A stretch of DNA of 49,577 bases, taken from an uncultured bacterium. GTDB lineage: Bacteria > Bacillota_I > Bacilli_A > RFN20 > CAG-826. Of the stretch, positions 6,442-48,458 are shown piece by piece. The notes beneath the pieces are model-generated. The model had not been told where the DNA came from. It made no database searches and worked only from the letters and a program-made list of their open reading frames with translations. The DNA lies in assembly GCA_949299335.1 (NCBI GenBank), contig CASGAD010000037.1:1-49577 (forward strand). Direction: 5' to 3'. The first letter of the stretch is position 1, and each line of letters opens with the position of its first letter. Position numbers and translations under genes: made by a program.

Positions 6442-8103
6442 TTATTTTAATTCATTTAATGCAAGTTCAATTCTATAAGTTACTTCTTCACTTCCTAATA
6501 TTTTCATAATAGAAAATAGATTTGGAGTTACTTTTCTACCAACTAAAACTACTCTTAAAATTTCGCAGGCATCGTTAACATTTCCTGCCCATTTAGATGG
6601 ATTCTCTTTATATACTTTATTATCAGCGCAAAAGCCAACCTCACTAGAAATTGCTTTTACATTACTAAACCATGTATTTTCATCATTATCTAAAGCGTAG
6701 TTATTTAAATATTTAGTTAAGAAAGCTTTAATAACGTCTTTAGATATTTTTTCGTTATACTCTTCTTTTTTAATGTTATTACAGAAAGTATCATGATCAA
6801 AGAAAGCAATTACAGGATATATATCACTATATTTAGCATAATCTTTTCTAGGATTTTTCTTTTCTCTTTCTATATTTAAAATTTCTAGATATCGAGCATA
6901 ATCTTTTTCAATAAATGAAGTTAATTCAGGAGAATACTTTTTAGCCCAAGCATAAGATTTTTCACCGATTTCTTCTTTAGTCATTTTGCTTAAGATTTCT
7001 TTAGAATAGAAAATTAACTTATCATTATCAAATAAAGCGCCATCTAAAGACATTTTCTTTAATTGGAATTTAAAATGACTTAAATCATAATCTTTTGATT
7101 GAACAATAAAGTCTTCATAATTTGAATTAGCAATAGTCATTAAATAGACTAATAAAGCTTTTGGTTCATAACCCTCTTTTAAGAAGAAATCTACACTGGC
7201 TTCTGGATCTTTACGTTTAGATAATTTTCTTTTATTACCATTATCGAGTTTCATAATTACAGGAAGATGAGCGTATTTAGGTAATTTAAATCCTAAACGT
7301 CTAAACATTTCAATATGTATTGGTAATGAAGGGAGCCATTCTTCTCCTCTTGTAACTAAATTAGTATGCATAAAATGGTCATCAACAACATGAGCAAAAT
7401 GGTATGTTGGTAAACCATCTCCTTTAAAAATAACTACATCTTGGTCATTTTCGGTTAAAAGTAAGTCACCTCTAATTTCATCATGAGCTTTAATTTTATT
7501 TAAATGATTTCCATTAGATTTAAATCTAATTACAAAGCTTTTACCTTCTTTAATCATTTTAATAGCTTCTTTAGGATCTAAATCTCTATAGATTGCATAT
7601 TTTCCATAAACACCTGTAATTTCTTTATTAGCAGTTTGACTCTCTCTTAACTTGGCTAAATCTTCTTCATTTAAAAAGCAAGGATAAGCATCGCCACGAG
7701 CAATGAGCTCTTTAATGACAACTTCATAAATTTCTTTACGTTTAGATTGAACATAAGGACCATAAATTCCTTCTTCATAATCGCCATAATACCCTTCATT
7801 AGGAATAATATCAAATTCTTTTAATTGTCTTAATAAAAGTTTGTCACTTCCTTCAATTTCACGCTTTGTGTCTGTATCTTCTAATCTTGTATAAAAAATT
7901 CCATTTGTATCTTTAGCAATTTTAGAAGCAATCATAGAAGTAAATAAACTTCCAGTATGTAAAAAACCTGTTGGTGAAGGCGCAAATCTAGTAACTTTAG
8001 CACCTTCTATTAAATTTCTTTCAGGGAATCTTTTCTCTAAATCTTCAATTGTTAAATTAATTTTTGGGAATATAAGATCTGCTAATTCTTGTCTTGAATC
8101 CAT
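6442..8103 (-). CDS. gltX: Glutamyl-tRNA synthetase
   Basis: A class I aminoacyl-tRNA synthetase that joins glutamate to its tRNA in the cytosol. It has the HIGH-type motif in RFAPSPTGFLHTGS and the KMSKS-type motif KLSKRK followed by DPEASVDFFL. I use the ATG at 8103 (product about 553 residues, beginning MDSRQELADLI) because AGAGAGG lies upstream at a workable distance. In-frame ATGs at 8145 and 8178 would add 14 to 25 Lys-rich residues; the longest would abut tRNA-Gly on the other strand. At this length it matches the longer GltX type of clostridia and relatives rather than the roughly 480-residue form. Whether it also mischarges tRNA-Gln cannot be told here. Confidence 0.93.
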   Translation of the reverse strand: MDSRQELADLIFPKINLTIEDLEKRFPERNLIEGAKVTRFAPSPTGFLHTGSLFTSMIASKIAKDTNGIFYTRLEDTDTKREIEGSDKLLLRQLKEFDIIPNEGYYGDYEEGIYGPYVQSKRKEIYEVVIKELIARGDAYPCFLNEEDLAKLRESQTANKEITGVYGKYAIYRDLDPKEAIKMIKEGKSFVIRFKSNGNHLNKIKAHDEIRGDLLLTENDQDVVIFKGDGLPTYHFAHVVDDHFMHTNLVTRGEEWLPSLPIHIEMFRRLGFKLPKYAHLPVIMKLDNGNKRKLSKRKDPEASVDFFLKEGYEPKALLVYLMTIANSNYEDFIVQSKDYDLSHFKFQLKKMSLDGALFDNDKLIFYSKEILSKMTKEEIGEKSYAWAKKYSPELTSFIEKDYARYLEILNIEREKKNPRKDYAKYSDIYPVIAFFDHDTFCNNIKKEEYNEKISKDVIKAFLTKYLNNYALDNDENTWFSNVKAISSEVGFCADNKVYKENPSKWAGNVNDACEILRVVLVGRKVTPNLFSIMKILGSEEVTYRIELALNELK

Positions 8104-33253: not shown

Positions 33254-33442
33254 AGGTTTTCTGTGCGAAATTTTGATCAAATTAACATACTTTACTAGAA
33301 AGATTATTTTATATAAATAATTTAATTTACTAACATAAGAGATAATTATTTTCATAAATAAAAGCATCAATTTAAATAATTCAAAATCATTTTTTATAAC
33401 TTCGCTTTACAATAAAGACTTTTCTTATTATCATTTTCTTTG

Positions 33443-33588
33443 TAAAAGGTAGATGAGGCTCATATTAGGATATGGACTATTGCCGACTTTAAAGGAGACT
33501 TTAAATATCGGTTTGAAAAGTTTTGGTCGAATCAAGGCCAAAAATAACATAGTTTCACCGCCTAATAAAGTTAAAGTTTGTACTTTTA
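33443..33588 (+). ncRNA. M-box (ykoK) Mg2+-sensing riboswitch
   Basis: The core AGATGAGGCTCATATTAGGA followed by TATGGACTATTGCC matches the highly conserved M-box core (G-TGAGGCTC-TAT...GGATA...CT-CTGCC). The later elements (hairpin GACTTTAAAGGAGACTTTAAATATC, GGTC/GGCC arm, AACATAG) are in the expected order. A closing helix can form between TAAAAG (33443) and CTTTTA (33583). It lies 5' of a P-type ATPase of the MgtA class, its classic target. With enough Mg2+ the aptamer folds and the following terminator forms, turning the gene off. Confidence 0.9.
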
Positions 33589-33604
33589 AGTATTTTGTTT
33601 AATG

Positions 33605-36334: not shown

Positions 36335-36364
36335 AAAAAAATATAAAGCTTAAACCTTATATTT
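36335..36364 (-). terminator. Terminator at the 3' end of the structured RNA candidate
   Basis: On the minus strand AAATATAAG (36364-36356) pairs with CTTTATATTT (36348-36339) around a 7-base loop, followed by TTTTG. The T-run is on the minus-strand side, so it ends a leftward transcript rather than mgtA. Confidence 0.6.
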
Positions 36365-36665
36365 CCTGCCTCCTACCGGGTTTAGGTAAGAGGCAGGCAG
36401 AGCACAAAAAGAATTACTAATCATACTGGAAATTCGAGAAACATAATAAACTCTCAAAGGACAATTCGTAAACTTTCGTTTACCTAACTACGCCTCATTT
36501 GTTTTATCAAACAATATTGTCATTCCTGCTATCTGTATATCTTTTAGTACCATAGTAGTTAGACCCGGTAATGTCGACTAATAGAATTCCTTATAGTGCC
36601 TAATTACTAGAAATTTCTTGATAGGGCGTGAATTTAAAATGCCTACTCTCCTTTCATAAGTACAA
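36335..36665 (-). ncRNA. Candidate long structured non-coding RNA
   Basis: About 330 bases on the minus strand, less AT-rich than other gaps and with no usable frame, end at a terminator. A GC-rich hairpin spans 36366-36398 (CCTGCCTC/GAGGCAGG plus TACC/GGTA). GTAAAC-GAAA-GTTTAC (36483-36468) has a GNRA tetraloop on this strand only. Contiguous bases 36570-36555 (TACCGGGTCTAACTAC) can pair in two 8-bp blocks with 36381-36374 and 36491-36484, giving long-range helices. It does not match tmRNA, RNase P, SRP or 6S consensus features that I know. Antisense control of mgtA is unlikely because it lies beyond the mgtA stop. The 5' end is uncertain; a relic of an RNA-bearing mobile element is the main alternative. 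Confidence 0.5.
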
Positions 36666-36700
36666 CAATTAGAAGCGAAACATTTTTTCTATTTTTTAAA

Positions 36701-41642: not shown

Positions 41643-44600
41643 CTATATTTTAGGTTCAACATAGAGCAATTTAGCTTCACTAATAGTTACACTTCCACTA
41701 CTAAGTTCTGATGCATCACCAGTTGAACTCCCAAAATAAAACATAAGGTCTGATGGATTTCCAGAATAAACTACTTCAATTATTGATTCTTGGCTTGGCT
41801 GAATTTCATAGAAACTTCCGCCCCATTCAGTATCAGTTCTTATTTCTATACCATCTTGTGTAGCGCTTAAATTCAGTGACCTAGTGTTAACGCTTGTTCC
41901 CTCACCAACATTAGGAGCATTTACATCAACTCTAGCTTTTATCACCGAATCACCATTGTTCTTAACCTTAAACTGTACATGATTGTAGCTAGTTGTACTT
42001 GCTGGGAAAGGTGAATAAACATTTTTATATGAATTTCCAACGACATCAGTATAAGTAATAGTATGCGAATTAGTAGTTTCATCAAAAAATACATTATAAA
42101 TATCATTGCTATCAATATTTAAATTAAAATCAACCCATTCATTTTGAGAAGGTTCTTCAGGATTTGCTGTATCATCGCTACCTGTATTTGTTGCGATTTC
42201 GAAACCACTAAATGTAATGTTTCCGCTTCTTAAAGTCTCATCATCATAACTTACAGATGAATCAATCATGAACATAATAGTATTAGCGTTGCCTTTATAA
42301 TTTACAACAATTTCACTTTCAGCATTTGGTTCGATAGTCGCATAACTTCCACCCCATTCAGTATCAGTTCTTATTTCAATACCATCTTGTGTAGCTGATG
42401 TATTAATTGCTTTAGTATTTGCACTTGAACCTTGTTCTCCCTCTGGAACATTAATATCAATTCTTAAGTTTACTGCTGCTTCTCCGTTATTTTTAACCTT
42501 AAATCTAATAGCTGTGGCATCTTTTGCATTTTGAGGTAAAACAGCGTTCATATTTTTATACGAATTACCTTTAATATCTGTATATTGTACATTTAAAGAA
42601 TCATCATTTTTTGCAATTACATATTCAGCATCATTAGTAAATGATAAATTTAAATCTTCCCATGGTGTCGATGGATCAGTTGGATCGTCAGGTTCAACAG
42701 GGGTCTCAACATATTCATTGTCTCCACAATCACCAATTTCAAAACTACTAATTGTAATACTTCCACTTCTTAAAGTTGTATCGTTGACTGAAGAATCAAT
42801 CATAAACATGAGTTGTGAAGGGTTTCCAGTATATTTAACAATAATCTCAGTTTCTTTTCCTGCAGCTATTGTAGCAAAACTACCACCATATACAGTATCT
42901 GTTCTAAGTTCAACACCATTGCCAGTTGCTAAAACATTTAGACATTTTGCTGAACCAGTAGAATAGCTATTTATATCTATTCTTAAATTGACTTCGCTGG
43001 TTCCATTATTTTTTACTTTAAATCTTATTGCATCTTTATTACCAGCATCAGCTTCTCCTGATAATGTGGTAACGATATTTTTATAAGAATTTCCAGCAAC
43101 ATCTGTGTAGGCAACTGTATAACTATCACTTTCGCCTGATGTAACAGTATAAACATCAGTAGAAGCAAAGGTTGTACCTAGTGTTCCCCAAGTATAATCA
43201 GCTGGATTAATAACATCTGTAGGATTTTCTACAGGTTCTTCTGGATCAGTTGGATCGTCAGGTTCAACAGGGGTCTCAACATATTCATTGTCTCCACAAT
43301 CACCGATTTCAAAACTGCTAATTGTAATATTTCCACTTCTTAAAGTTGAATCACTATAATTTACTGAAGAATCAATCATAAACATGAGTTCTGAAGGGTT
43401 TCCAGTATATTTAACAATAATTTCAGTTTCTTTTCCTGCAGCTATTGTAGCAAAACTACCACCATATACAGTATCTGTTCTAAGTTCAACACCATTGCCA
43501 GTTGCTAAAACATTTAAACATTTTGCTGAACCAGTAGAATAGCTATTTACATCTATTCTTAAATTGACTTCGCTTGTTCCATTATTTTTTACTTTAAATC
43601 TTATTGCATCTTTATTACCAGCATCAGCTTCAGCAGATAATGTTGAAAAAATATTTCGATAAGAATTTCCGGCAATATTAGTGTAAGCAATCGTATAACT
43701 TCCATTTTCACCTGCTGTAACGGTATAAACATCATTAGATGTGAAAGTTGTATCAAGTGTTTCCCAAGCATAATCAGCTGGATTAATAACATCTGTAGGA
43801 TTTTCTACAGGTTCTTCTGGATCAGTTGGATTATCTGGTTCTACTGGATTTGAGTTTTCACCACAATCGCCTAATTCAAAATTACTAAATGTTATATCAC
43901 CACTTCTGGTTGCTTGATCGTTTACAGAAGAGTCGATCATAAACATAAGTTCAGTTGCTTTACCGAGATATTTTACAATTACTTCTGTTTCTTCATTTGG
44001 TGCTAAAGTTGCAAAACTACCACCCCATTGATTATCAGTTCTTATCTCTGTTCCATCTTGAGTAGCAACTGTGTTTATACATTTTGCAGTACCTGAAGAA
44101 TAATCATTAACATCTATTCTTAAGCTAACTTCTTCTGTTCCGTTATTTTTTACTTTAAATCTAATTGCATCAGTATTTAATGCATCTTTTGGCAATTTTG
44201 TATTAATGTTTTTGTATTCACTTCCGCCCATATTGGAATAAGTAACATTAATCTTTCCATCCTCTTGATTAGTGACTGTGTATCTATCTGTACTTCCAAA
44301 TGATGTATCTAAACTTGTCCAAGTAAAATCTTCAGGATCTATAACTTTTTCTGGTTCATTAATTACAGGCTCATATTTACTACCATCTAAATGAGCAAAA
44401 TTAACTTGATCGTAATAAGCTGTTGTACTTGTAAAATCACTTGTCAAATTTCCCATCCAAGCACTTGCGGTATTATCACCACACCATGTATTCATAATAA
44501 TTCTACCTGGAGTAGAAGGAATATTGTTTGTTGCCTTGTAAACAGGTTCTTTATCAACATACCAAATAATTGATTCTTCACTCCAAACAAAACCATACTC

Positions 44601-45116
44601 ATGATATTCTACACTTGCGTCAAAACCTAAATCGTACCAGTGTTCATTTCCGCCTTTACCGTTTGTAAAATAATTGAATTGGACTCGAGTTGTATCACTT
44701 CCTAAGAATTCAATATCGACTTCATCCCAAGGATTTCCTTCACTTTCACCAGTATATACAAAGAATGCTGAGCATGTTCCAGGTGCCTTAGCTGGTTTCA
44801 TTTTTACTGAATAATAACCATACCCGAAATGGTCATTACTCTTCAATTCTCCACCATACTTATTATCCCCATCTTTACTAACAGTTAATGCTGCTTCACC
44901 ATTTTCAAATTTAACGTTTTTATTAGTCCAATAGCAATCGAAAGGTGAACCATTTGTCCATCCATTAGATGCTGTAAAGATTTTTGATTCAGCATTAAAG
45001 TTTTCAATTTCATAAGCGATAAATTCAGGTGCATCACTTAAATCTTGACCAAAACAGGATGATAACATGAATCCACTAATAACAAGCATTCCAGTTTTTA
45101 AATATCTTCTTTTCAT
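41643..45116 (-). CDS. GH16 lichenase-like surface lipoprotein with five repeated binding-type modules
   Basis: A 1157-residue protein with a lipoprotein signal ending MLSSC (Cys21). The GH16 domain (about 30-250) closely follows the Bacillus beta-1,3-1,4-glucanase pattern, with catalytic Glu132, Asp134 and Glu136 in PWDEVDIEFLG and then VQFNYFTNGKGG. Five related beta-rich modules follow (starting near residues 259, 440, 634, 819 and 990), each with IRFKVKNNG, RIDVN, a Gly-Gly-Ser-Phe turn and LMFMIDSSV. Pro/Asp/Glu linkers (PVEPDDPTDPEEPVENPTD) separate them. They look like carbohydrate-binding modules but I cannot assign a family. GGAGGG precedes the ATG, 18 bases after the GH3 gene. It would cut mixed-linkage glucan at the cell surface. 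Confidence 0.92.
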   Translation of the reverse strand: MKRRYLKTGMLVISGFMLSSCFGQDLSDAPEFIAYEIENFNAESKIFTASNGWTNGSPFDCYWTNKNVKFENGEAALTVSKDGDNKYGGELKSNDHFGYGYYSVKMKPAKAPGTCSAFFVYTGESEGNPWDEVDIEFLGSDTTRVQFNYFTNGKGGNEHWYDLGFDASVEYHEYGFVWSEESIIWYVDKEPVYKATNNIPSTPGRIIMNTWCGDNTASAWMGNLTSDFTSTTAYYDQVNFAHLDGSKYEPVINEPEKVIDPEDFTWTSLDTSFGSTDRYTVTNQEDGKINVTYSNMGGSEYKNINTKLPKDALNTDAIRFKVKNNGTEEVSLRIDVNDYSSGTAKCINTVATQDGTEIRTDNQWGGSFATLAPNEETEVIVKYLGKATELMFMIDSSVNDQATRSGDITFSNFELGDCGENSNPVEPDNPTDPEEPVENPTDVINPADYAWETLDTTFTSNDVYTVTAGENGSYTIAYTNIAGNSYRNIFSTLSAEADAGNKDAIRFKVKNNGTSEVNLRIDVNSYSTGSAKCLNVLATGNGVELRTDTVYGGSFATIAAGKETEIIVKYTGNPSELMFMIDSSVNYSDSTLRSGNITISSFEIGDCGDNEYVETPVEPDDPTDPEEPVENPTDVINPADYTWGTLGTTFASTDVYTVTSGESDSYTVAYTDVAGNSYKNIVTTLSGEADAGNKDAIRFKVKNNGTSEVNLRIDINSYSTGSAKCLNVLATGNGVELRTDTVYGGSFATIAAGKETEIIVKYTGNPSQLMFMIDSSVNDTTLRSGSITISSFEIGDCGDNEYVETPVEPDDPTDPSTPWEDLNLSFTNDAEYVIAKNDDSLNVQYTDIKGNSYKNMNAVLPQNAKDATAIRFKVKNNGEAAVNLRIDINVPEGEQGSSANTKAINTSATQDGIEIRTDTEWGGSYATIEPNAESEIVVNYKGNANTIMFMIDSSVSYDDETLRSGNITFSGFEIATNTGSDDTANPEEPSQNEWVDFNLNIDSNDIYNVFFDETTNSHTITYTDVVGNSYKNVYSPFPASTTSYNHVQFKVKNNGDSVIKARVDVNAPNVGEGTSVNTRSLNLSATQDGIEIRTDTEWGGSFYEIQPSQESIIEVVYSGNPSDLMFYFGSSTGDASELSSGSVTISEAKLLYVEPKI
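41660..44345 (-). repeat. Five tandem modules of about 510-570 bp in the GH16 gene
   Basis: Modules 2 and 3 are nearly identical in DNA: GGGTCTCAAC occurs at 42701 and again at 43271, exactly 570 bases apart, with long matching flanks. Modules 1, 4 and 5 are more diverged. The pattern indicates a recent duplication within an older array. Confidence 0.9.
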
Positions 45117-45134
45117 AAATTATTCCCTCCAAAA

Positions 45135-48100
45135 TTAGATATTTTGATTTAAATTATTATTTTCTTTTATTTGTTTTCTTACCATTCTATAAATTAAGAA
45201 TAATAAGACTAACGAACCTATTACACAAACTCCATCAAGTGTATATAAAATAACTTTATAAATTGGAGTAACTGCTTTTGGCTTTACACCATGGATATAC
45301 CCATTCATCGCATAACTATTAGCAACCATATAAAGAGTTGATTTAACGCTTTCTCTAGCTTGATATGAATATACCTTATCACTAGTATCAATTGTAAAGG
45401 CTTCGGCGGTAGGATCTAAACTCATTGATCCACCAGCCATAACAGCTTGTTTTGTATCCATAAACCATGTGTGGTAATAATCAGTTAACACAGCACCTTC
45501 ATAACCCCGCTCTTTTCTTAATAATCTTGTAATCAAGTTATAGTTTCCACCAGCCCAAACTGGACCAATACGATTAAAGGAGGACATTACACCTAAGCAA
45601 GCATTAATCTTAGTTGTTTTCTTTGTAAACTTATAGTCTCCATTTTCATCTTTAATTAATTTGCCATTAGAATCGATTTCAACTTCATAATAAGTTTCTT
45701 CGATTTCATTTCCTTTAATGACATCTTCAAAGGCCTTTAAATAGATTTCTCTAATAGCTTGTTCGTTTGAATATGTGCATAATCCACTTTCTTTTTCTCT
45801 ATGGATTTCTTGATTGTTTAATGCAAAGTGCTTCAAATAAACAAAGATTCCTTTTTTTGCAACGGCAATTGTTTCTTGTTTAGCCATTTCACTTGAGATA
45901 ATTGGATCTTCACTATAATATTCAAAGTTTCTTCCTCCAAATGGTGTTCTATGAATATTATTAGCAGGGCCATACCAACCAGTAACATTATTATCATAGC
46001 AATCAATTGCGATTGAGTTACCTTTTTCATAAGCTAATTCTTCATTCCAAGTTTGAGCAATGATTAATCCACATGGATATGTAGGACCTAAAGCAAAGTG
46101 TCCTGCGACTGAATTTAATCCAGCTGGACCATCTTTATCACTAGTTTCTGGTTTATTAATAGATGGAACCATTTCTGTTTTATATCCACCATTTTGGATT
46201 AAAGCGCTAGCTTCAGCAACACTCATTTTAGATATCAGGATATTCCATAATGGATCGCTATAATCTCTGCCCCTTAAATCAATTAAATCTAATTCAACTT
46301 CACTATTTCCCCAAGTAATATTTTCTGTGATATCACTTTCTTTTAATGGATTTAATGAATCATAACTTTGAATTAATTTATAAATTTCACTATCAGTGCT
46401 TAATTCCTTATAGTACTCATAGCCAACTGGATTTCCGTTTTTATCAACGCCATTAATTCTTTCACTATGAATACTCTTAATATCACTTACATCACCATAA
46501 GTTTTTGGGTATGTTCCTTCCCAATCTTTTCTAGACAAATAAGTAATATTTTCATCATATGAGTTTAAATCAGCGCTTTCAAAAATGTTTGTAATATCTT
46601 CATTAGTCGTTTCATCTTGACTAAAACTAGTATAATCAAGTTCATCGTTTACAAATGAATCGTTAACAAAATCAGGGTTTCCAGCAATCGTTTCACTTGG
46701 AGAAGCAATCAAATTCGTTGCAGAAACGCCTTTTTTTCTTAAGATATTGTTTACAGCAGCGTGTGCATCTTCTGCTACTGTAAAATAATATTGTCCTTCA
46801 CTTAAAACATAAGTTTTCTTATTTAAGTAATCATAAGAAGCTAAATCTTTTTTATCAAAAGACAATGTGACTACTTCGCTTTCGTTAGGCTTTAATTCTT
46901 TTGTTGTCTTTTTGAAGTCGACAAGTTGAATTGCACTTTTTTCAATATTATTTTCTTTTTCATATTCTCCATAAGGAGTTTGTGCATATAATTGAACTAC
47001 ATCTTTACCTTCAACATCACCTGTATTAGTAACTCTTACCGTACAAATGAATTTATCTTCTTCTTCAGTAACAGTAAATTCACTCCATTCAAAATCAGTT
47101 GTTGATAAACCATATCCAAATGGATACATAACTTCATCTTCATAATTCCATTCATCATGTCCTAATTCTTTAGATTCATTGACTTCCCAGTCACTCATTT
47201 TTCTAGCGTTACCAGCATTAAGAACTTGATCCTCATAACGAGTTTCATAGTATCTATATCCAACATAGATTCCTTCATTATATGTAACATAATAATAACC
47301 ATCAGCCCATGATTGGCCTTCGTAATTAGGAACTTTATTACCATCAATTAAATATTCAAAATCACCCATATTCATCATAGCAGGTGAAGAAAATGCATTA
47401 TAAGCGTATGTATCTGTTAAATGGCCACTTGGAGTAACCTCACCATTTAATATTTGAGGTAAAGCTTCTAATCCATAACTTCCTGTTCCAGGAACACTTA
47501 AAACAGTTGAAATATTTTCAAAGTCTTTTATCCAACCTAACTCGATACTATTATTGCAATTAACAAGCAAAATGACATCTTTAAAATTATCATTTAAATA
47601 TTTAATTACTTCTAATTCAATTGAATCAGGTTCTAAATAACTTTTTTCTTTGTCGCTTTCTGCATCTGGATGATAACCACTTGATAAGTCTTTGGCTGTA
47701 TCAACATAATCATTCATTCCTCTAGCTAAATCGTTTCCTTCTCCGCCAGTTCTTGATAAGACAAAAACAGCAGTATCGTATTCCTTAAATGAATCTACGA
47801 CACCTTGGTTTTCTTTAATAACAGGTAACGGGCATTCATTAATACTATAGTCATCGCTATCGCCATAATTTATTGAGCCAACACCTCTTTGGTATTTTTT
47901 ACCGCCACCATCCTTATAAAAATTCCATAAAGAATCATTTACATCAAAACCATTATCCTCAAATACATCTTTTAAATTGAGATCACTTGTGGCTGTACCA
48001 CTTCCAGTTCCACCAAATATAAAGTTTACAGAAGACTTGCTAAACAATGAGACTTTGGTGTTATTAGCATATGGTATATTTCCTTTTTCTAATAAAGTAA

Positions 48101-48365
48101 TACCTTCTTTAACGATATTATAACAAACAGACTTTTGGTATTCTTCTTTTTCTTTTTCGTCACTGAATTCTGCTTCATAATAAGTTGGATCAACTCCTTC
48201 ATATTCAACAGTTGTATGACCTTTTCCCAAATCACCTAAAGCAGCTTTTAAAGTATCAGCATACCCTTCAGCAATGCTATTAGTAACTGCTGTTAAAGTA
48301 ATTAACGCTGCAATTCCGAAGACAGAAAAACCAATTCCAATAATTCTAGATTTTTTAAATTTCAT
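45135..48365 (-). CDS. Membrane-anchored glycoside hydrolase family 3 enzyme, second copy
   Basis: A 1076-residue paralogue of 15719-18784 with the same architecture. An N-terminal membrane segment (about 7-30) and a C-terminal one (about 1035-1062) flank the protein. GH3_C-type and fibronectin-III-like domains come first, and the catalytic barrel is last, with YGPANNIHRTPFGGRNFEY, KHFALNNQEIHR and the nucleophile Asp962 in GAVLTDYYH. A charged insert of about 30 residues (EVEIDSNGKLIKDENGDYKF) lies before the nucleophile and is absent from the other copy. AAGGAG precedes the ATG. It is co-transcribed with the GH16 gene, so the likely role is to finish degradation of beta-glucan oligosaccharides at the cell surface. 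A perfect cre site lies 94 bases upstream. Confidence 0.9.
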   Translation of the reverse strand: MKFKKSRIIGIGFSVFGIAALITLTAVTNSIAEGYADTLKAALGDLGKGHTTVEYEGVDPTYYEAEFSDEKEKEEYQKSVCYNIVKEGITLLEKGNIPYANNTKVSLFSKSSVNFIFGGTGSGTATSDLNLKDVFEDNGFDVNDSLWNFYKDGGGKKYQRGVGSINYGDSDDYSINECPLPVIKENQGVVDSFKEYDTAVFVLSRTGGEGNDLARGMNDYVDTAKDLSSGYHPDAESDKEKSYLEPDSIELEVIKYLNDNFKDVILLVNCNNSIELGWIKDFENISTVLSVPGTGSYGLEALPQILNGEVTPSGHLTDTYAYNAFSSPAMMNMGDFEYLIDGNKVPNYEGQSWADGYYYVTYNEGIYVGYRYYETRYEDQVLNAGNARKMSDWEVNESKELGHDEWNYEDEVMYPFGYGLSTTDFEWSEFTVTEEEDKFICTVRVTNTGDVEGKDVVQLYAQTPYGEYEKENNIEKSAIQLVDFKKTTKELKPNESEVVTLSFDKKDLASYDYLNKKTYVLSEGQYYFTVAEDAHAAVNNILRKKGVSATNLIASPSETIAGNPDFVNDSFVNDELDYTSFSQDETTNEDITNIFESADLNSYDENITYLSRKDWEGTYPKTYGDVSDIKSIHSERINGVDKNGNPVGYEYYKELSTDSEIYKLIQSYDSLNPLKESDITENITWGNSEVELDLIDLRGRDYSDPLWNILISKMSVAEASALIQNGGYKTEMVPSINKPETSDKDGPAGLNSVAGHFALGPTYPCGLIIAQTWNEELAYEKGNSIAIDCYDNNVTGWYGPANNIHRTPFGGRNFEYYSEDPIISSEMAKQETIAVAKKGIFVYLKHFALNNQEIHREKESGLCTYSNEQAIREIYLKAFEDVIKGNEIEETYYEVEIDSNGKLIKDENGDYKFTKKTTKINACLGVMSSFNRIGPVWAGGNYNLITRLLRKERGYEGAVLTDYYHTWFMDTKQAVMAGGSMSLDPTAEAFTIDTSDKVYSYQARESVKSTLYMVANSYAMNGYIHGVKPKAVTPIYKVILYTLDGVCVIGSLVLLFLIYRMVRKQIKENNNLNQNI

Positions 48366-48458
48366 GAATCAATATTCTCCTTTTATCATGTTTACTTTAA
48401 ATAAATCAATTATTTTTATTAATATGTTTAAGAATAACTAGTCATTTTTTTGACATAA

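Follow-up and report, generated by a model that had tools for sequence, protein, structure and literature searches.

Introduction

The csRNAs of pneumococcus are a multi-copy family. Structured transcripts are known for some of the bcr elements, a set of repeats in Bacillus cereus. Competence affects several pneumococcal small RNAs (PMC6560143). CiaR activates the csRNAs, on which competence acts only indirectly, and the srf RNA that lies directly under a ComX site was judged to be probably non-functional (PMC6560143). Large structured bacterial RNAs whose function is unknown are rare, and any new example with covarying pairs is a target for discovery.

Here we analyse such an RNA in an uncultured gut bacterium of the genus CAG-826. 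The window is the whole stretch of DNA that was analysed, 49,577 nucleotides long, and its genome (1.42 Mb in 37 contigs) is called G000; G014, G007, G005 and similar labels are other species of the same genus. A first-pass annotation had proposed a structured RNA at positions 36335 to 36665. It missed that the RNA is present in several copies, that it has the promoter of competence genes, and that its sites turn over between species.

The locus and its copies

The results support a new structured RNA of about 300 bases on the minus strand, as first proposed, on the basis of four copies in the genome, a consensus fold, base pairs changed on both sides, and swap tests. Its start is probably near 36655 and its promoter extends to 36689, past the end of the interval originally marked (Table 1). 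The minus-strand terminator and the GC-rich hairpin described in the first pass are both present. The reading frames are short and broken, as had been noted, with a longest stop-free stretch of 45 codons on the minus strand and 43 on the plus strand. A small-ORF reading (ATGACAATATT..) was dropped by inspection, the frame not being kept in G014 or G007. No RNA family had been recognised, and the search with the covariance models of Rfam 15 agrees: none of the 4227 families scored at or above its gathering cut-off, and there were only weak chance matches at E up to 10.

Table 1 Features of the RNA gene and its promoter, in positions of the window
Feature	Position	Strand	Basis or remark
Promoter-like com box, GAAAAA-N16-TGTTGTACT	36659..36689	-	Common to comEA, comFA, dprA and rpsF-ssb in G000 and G014
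RNA gene	36335..36655	-	5' end predicted near GAAAGGAG at 36655 and 3' end near 36335, from copy alignment and com box position
P1 5' arm, long closing helix	36629..36655	-	Swap test 0/20,000; covariation
P1 3' arm	36428..36458	-	Swap test; covariation
P2 5' strand, CACGCC	36625..36630	-	Partner GGCGU 36490-36494; pair type near-invariant, so supported by conservation, not covariation
P3 domain, variable hairpin	36537..36624	-	88 nt here, about 63-65 nt in G014; swap test 1/20,000
Core, ACARATA-N10-CAATAT	36513..36536	-	Most conserved single-stranded part
Proposed pseudoknot 5' strand, GGA-N4-CAAU	36516..36526	-	Partner AUUGUCC 36459-36465; by inspection
P5 hairpin, GUAAAC-GAAA-GUUUAC	36468..36483	-	Stem kept with changes; GAAA loop in this genome only
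P6, weak hairpin	36401..36427	-	Absent or different in G014
P7, GC-rich hairpin	36365..36397	-	Strongly covarying, 10 of 12 pairs changing on both sides; swap test 0/20,000
Terminator hairpin and U-tract	36335..36364	-	This copy; not homologous in other copies

The first-pass annotation also argued that the nested complementarity in this stretch is above chance. The exact complements do exist (36555-36562 with 36484-36491, and 36563-36570 with 36374-36381), yet by itself this sequence has a folding energy that stands out only modestly and is alike on the two strands (z of -2.37 for the minus and -2.25 for the plus strand). The lone sequence is thus weak evidence, and it is the comparison of copies that decides.

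BLASTN finds four copies in G000, namely the window copy and three others (C11:43258-43519, C3:24495-24796 and C31:65238-65540), which are 78-83% identical to it. All four are intergenic, and the neighbours differ from site to site. The window copy lies between mgtA and a lipoprotein gene, and the other three between a PhoU-like gene and a desulfoferrodoxin gene, a 5-formyltetrahydrofolate cyclo-ligase-like gene and eno, and trxA and a gene for a small membrane protein. (Names of neighbouring genes were assigned by reading, except where Pfam is cited.) The RNA does converge with mgtA, as had been pointed out, but because the other copies have other neighbours this arrangement is incidental. 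An M-box magnesium riboswitch (Rfam RF00380, 79.3 bits) is found at 33438-33593 of the window, on the plus strand, upstream of the convergent mgtA-like gene.

The orientation of the neighbours bears on the idea that the RNA is a cis-acting leader or riboswitch of an adjoining gene. The complex fold with its conserved unpaired core is aptamer-like, and a co-directional gene follows downstream of three copies (C3 in G000, and C30 and C15 in G014). However, in most copies the next gene on the downstream side is convergent, which implies that the RNA is not a leader, and the convergent genes at these other well-placed copies are mutually unrelated. This idea is largely refuted, and we regard it as extremely improbable.

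A covariance model built from the four G000 copies only (R1) finds four further loci in the genus, one in G007 (E 8.6e-13) and three in G014 (best E 2.3e-12). A shorter model of the core (R2) brings G014 to five copies and adds one at a contig end in G005. The models thus place relatives of the RNA in G014 (at least five copies) and in G007 (one copy). The G005 copy (L043, contig C47) was set aside. It is near-identical to the G014 C61 locus, while other genes of G005 are only 51-67% identical to the queries, and its com box differs; on these grounds contig C47 is probably misbinned. With this doubtful contig left out, the RNA is present in 3 of the 26 species of the genus.

The model scans found no RNA in 224 genomes from other genera of the family, in 279 genomes of the order or in 395 genomes drawn evenly from the class; scans of this size use stricter filters. 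A scan for the core pattern across 84,980 species returned only the MAGs that correspond to G005, G014 and G007; the genome of the window is possibly outside that collection. BLASTN against 115 relatives found only the RNA's own copies, apart from one 45-base match in two genomes, which was rejected as chance, its surroundings reading as a protein gene. There was no match in phages, plasmids or viral contigs.

The G014 copies represent a shorter subtype. Some of them look damaged, for example that on C27 with an altered P2, and a sixth copy (G014:C31:17669, L119, minus strand) is strongly decayed and barely recognisable, with an intact com box. Such copies fit decaying repeats as well as they fit a needed function. 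The single G007 copy adjoins relatives of two large genes of the window (41643-48425 in the window, 2819-8956 in L037), one of them a lipoprotein-like gene of 1157 residues, the other a long gene whose end is near 48365. The two genes and the RNA are possibly a travelling cluster.

Fold and covariation

Applied to the four G000 copies, RNAalifold gives a consensus fold of -60.2 kcal/mol on the minus strand, as against -32.7 on the reverse strand, with 13 pairs altered on both sides in at least one copy. When nine copies are aligned to R1, 94.5% of the cells in the 75 modelled pairs can pair, compared with 75.4% in shuffles; 45 pairs change on both sides, where 24.4 are expected; and the covariation score is 0.479, compared with 0.189. 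None of 500 shuffles reached the observed value in any of these three comparisons. If the partner is shifted by one to three columns, pairing in the same alignment falls to 39-45%.

The nine-copy alignment is fitted to the structure, and for this reason an alignment-free test was added, in which the arms of ten copies were paired in silico with their own partners and, separately, with those of other copies. For P1, the values are -15.5 kcal/mol with the own partner, -9.4 with those of other copies of the same species and -7.3 with those of other species. The permutation counts for P1, P3 and P7 are given in Table 1; for P5 the count is 106 of 20,000. These permutations ignore kinship within a species, but for P1, P3 and P7 the own partners still beat those of the same species. 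A MAFFT alignment of eight copies misaligned P2 in G014 and was left out.

P1 (the closing helix), P3 and P7 (the GC-rich hairpin) thus show covarying pairs in related genomes, which the first-pass annotation had named as the support to look for. Such pairs are not seen in the two 8-base blocks in which they had been anticipated. The first of these pairings (CTAACTAC/GTAGTTAG) has 7-8 of its 8 positions paired in all four G000 copies, 5 of 8 in G007, and is missing from G014 along with the stretch that would hold it; it may be an extra contact at the level of the species. The second is complete in no more than two copies, and it overlaps P7, which is better supported. Neither is a feature of the family. 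The GNRA-capped hairpin singled out in the first pass is P5, which is indeed present, with a GAAA loop that is constant within this genome but found in neither G014 nor G007.

The fold is made up of the closing helix P1, P2, the P3 domain, the conserved core, the small hairpin P5 and, on the 3' side, P7. P2 is a short and near-invariant CGCC/GGCG helix. We propose that the core is pseudoknotted, by pairing of GGR-N4-CAAU with AUUG-YCC; the pair is GGA:UCC in G000 and G007, and GGG:CCC in most G014 copies, a single switch. Taken together, the comparisons show an RNA fold under selection.

These compensatory changes contradict the alternative that the stretch is the remnant of a protein-coding gene or the end of an insertion sequence, with no RNA function and no conserved pairing. 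Repetition within the genome would suit such a remnant. Against it, no stop-free stretch exceeds the 45 codons given above, the changes preserve base pairing and not codons, and the phage and plasmid collections hold no match. A remnant of this kind is hardly credible.

A promoter shared with competence genes

All of the G000 and G014 copies have the same upstream arrangement: GAAAAA, about 16 unconserved bases, TGTTGTACT (TGTAGTACT in one copy), and then WRTGAAAGG or a close variant. In these two species the box can be written GGAAAAA..TGTTGTACT. The exact pattern GAAAAA-N16-21-TTGTACT has 13 sites in G000 and 10 in G014, compared with 0-1 in a reversed control, and no sites in G007, G024 or G025. 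Besides the RNA copies, exact boxes precede rpsF-ssb, an NFACT (RqcH-like) gene and a gene for a secreted protein. In both species one also stands before a gene for a 60-residue peptide of unknown family (..GEAITLAAVMSVLVIAIITVVVYKLY..), which is followed by a ribosomal protein L21-like gene (L118 1301-1483, minus strand; L115). With one or two mismatches, the box precedes a ComEA-ComEC pair, DprA, a ComFA-like helicase and a TnpB-family gene. Although several of these com-gene matches do not reach the NCBIfam equivalog cut-offs, they show the domains expected of them; for DprA and SSB the Pfam matches are clear.

The strongest check comes from comparing species: in each congener that was read, a single species-specific box stands at the same position before comEA, comFA, dprA and rpsF. 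It is CGGAAAAA..TTGTATTAGTGAAGG-like in G004 and G024, ..TTCGTATTAAGTGAAAGG-like in G012 and G025, and ..TCTTGTTAGTAAGG in G007, where the comFA region compared was not the start of the gene. Since these four genes share a box at the same place in each species, we take it, judging by its genes, to be the competence promoter. And as the RNA has this motif in common with comEA-comEC, comFA, dprA and rpsF-ssb, it is probably part of the competence regulon in G000 and G014. The box is also found before genes that are not classical competence genes, namely rqcH, defence genes and a tnpB. At every RNA site its spacing is kept although the bases of the spacer vary, suggesting that expression is selected for site by site.

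A promoter of the late competence regulon accompanies the G000 and G014 copies but not the single G007 copy, which lacks the G007 box and carries GTTGTGTATAATGAAAGG. Co-regulation is thus limited to G000 and G014, and the G007 copy may be an arrival from a G000-like lineage, or may be driven by a housekeeping sigma factor.

A candidate for the competence sigma factor that reads the box, picked out by inspection, is a 174-residue protein of the sigma-70 family (G000:C5:30491; L191, G000:C5:30491-30679), which has TTGTACTAGTAAG directly upstream of its own gene and is perhaps autoregulated. At the threshold applied, this protein was not detected in G014. An ECF sigma factor beside clpB was considered as a link and rejected, its upstream region having no com box.

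The TnpB-family gene (L149 936-2230, on G000:C34) scores above the cut-off for guided_TnpB and has a one-mismatch com box directly before its frame. This raises the question of whether the RNA is the guide or scaffold of an RNA-guided enzyme, with which it could be produced jointly. However, neither R1 nor R2 has a hit at the tnpB locus, and no variable guide was recognised at either end of the RNA. Such a role, as guide or as scaffold, is very unlikely.

The same com box was seen in two further settings. A second short element of about 55-60 nt, CGCGATATTAATAAATGGATAGAATCGTTTATT..TTCTTTGACA with a small hairpin, follows it in several places: at 7419 and 10695 of G000:C35 (L146, minus strand), at about 3045, 7126, 10640 and 13495 of G014:C35 (L147, minus strand), and also in L110, L127 and L148. 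Many of these sites are near defence genes (an RloB/AAA pair, a TOTE primase-helicase, and a reverse transcriptase with a Toprim-type match), and the loci of the element have no Rfam match. In addition, an intergenic com box lies in the loop of a hairpin, AAAAAGTACGTTT..AAACGTACTTTTT, at L124 (G000:C31:30501) and L109 (G014:C15:5736). It is conserved in both species, with no co-directional gene close by. The com boxes make a competence regulon readable for these species, defence genes included.

Turnover of sites between close relatives

G014 is the closest relative found, with an enolase that is 98% identical. Seven sites can be compared between it and G000, and at all seven the RNA is present in one species and missing from the other. 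The eno, desulfoferrodoxin and trxA sites have the RNA in G000 and are empty in G014, and the hppA-clpB, rpoC, degV and dinB sites have it in G014 and are without it in G000. Occupied and empty orthologous sites in close relatives, the mark of a mobile element, are therefore found seven times, and with no site shared the copies turn over quickly, as mobile elements do. The G000 copies on C3 and C31 are about 97% alike inside the RNA and drop abruptly to unrelated flanks at both edges. By eye, no terminal inverted repeats or target-site duplications were recognised (the relatives are too diverged for exact empty sites), and no enzyme is linked to the RNA copies. Overall the pattern looks like that of mobile or frequently recopied elements.

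The RNA could accordingly be a selfish, non-autonomous mobile element, whose RNA serves its own copying or stability and which has borrowed the com box in order to be made during DNA uptake, with no gain to the host. The complete turnover of sites, the abrupt edges of C3 and C31, the decayed copies in G014 and the patchy presence across the genus all speak for it. On the other side are the missing terminal repeats, target duplications and linked enzyme, and the com box spacing that is kept site by site around an unconserved spacer, which suggests selection for expression. We consider a purely selfish element a possibility to be held tentatively. A variant is that a mobile RNA element has captured a host competence promoter, so that its RNA is made only during DNA import, when spread from strain to strain is easiest, and either spreads itself or biases transformation; this is unlikely.

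Proposed explanation

We think it probable that the locus is a stand-alone RNA gene of a new family, with a promoter of the late competence class and dispersed copies that turn over between species. This reading overlaps with the purely selfish one. Comparison of sequences establishes the gene copies, the fold, the common promoter motif and the turnover of sites; from these we infer the use of the promoter, the sigma factor that reads it, and everything that the RNA does. Production of the competence sigma factor would switch on every copy of the RNA at once. The window copy would be transcribed leftward, from about 36655 to 36335, and would fold into a domain closed by P1 with the conserved pseudoknotted core. 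We infer a role in competent cells, in which the RNA would act in trans on the competent state, probably through a protein or target bound at the core. The analysis turned up neither a partner protein nor a target.

The promoter is a strong clue that ties the RNA to natural competence in a group of uncultured gut Bacilli for which there is little work on competence. Should competent cells make the RNA, it would be a new regulator of DNA uptake or else a parasite that is timed to uptake.

Comparison with known systems

In kind, this is a large structured bacterial RNA, and it matches no described family. A limited literature search did not find its combination of a competence promoter, several copies and complete site turnover.

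The CiaR csRNAs and srf RNAs of pneumococcus resemble it in being non-coding; they rise with competence, as this RNA would, and several of them are of unknown function (PMC6560143). They have no sequence family in common with it, as there is no Rfam match, and the CiaR direct repeat TTTAAG-N5-TTTAAG is absent from the sequences upstream of the RNA copies. The ROOL, GOLLD, OLE and raiA-type RNAs are likewise large, strongly folded and mostly stand-alone, and some occur in gut Firmicutes (PMC12286853). The RNA described here differs from them in being smaller, in its multiple copies and in its competence promoter, and no covariance model of these families matches it.

The repeats bcr1-bcr18 of Bacillus cereus are similar in being interspersed elements of 100-400 bp in Bacilli, with mobile behaviour (PMC6542083). 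The bcr elements are tied to a TTTAT motif (PMC6542083), whereas no such rule was noticed for this RNA, for which no match turned up in Rfam or elsewhere. Finally, the pneumococcal ComX box is comparable to the com box in having a T-rich upstream stretch and a -10-like motif before late competence genes (PMC6560143). The G000 and G014 box, GGAAAAA..TGTTGTACT, differs from it, whereas the boxes of G012 and G025 (TTCGTA.TA) resemble the ComX-box TTMCGAATA (PMC6560143).
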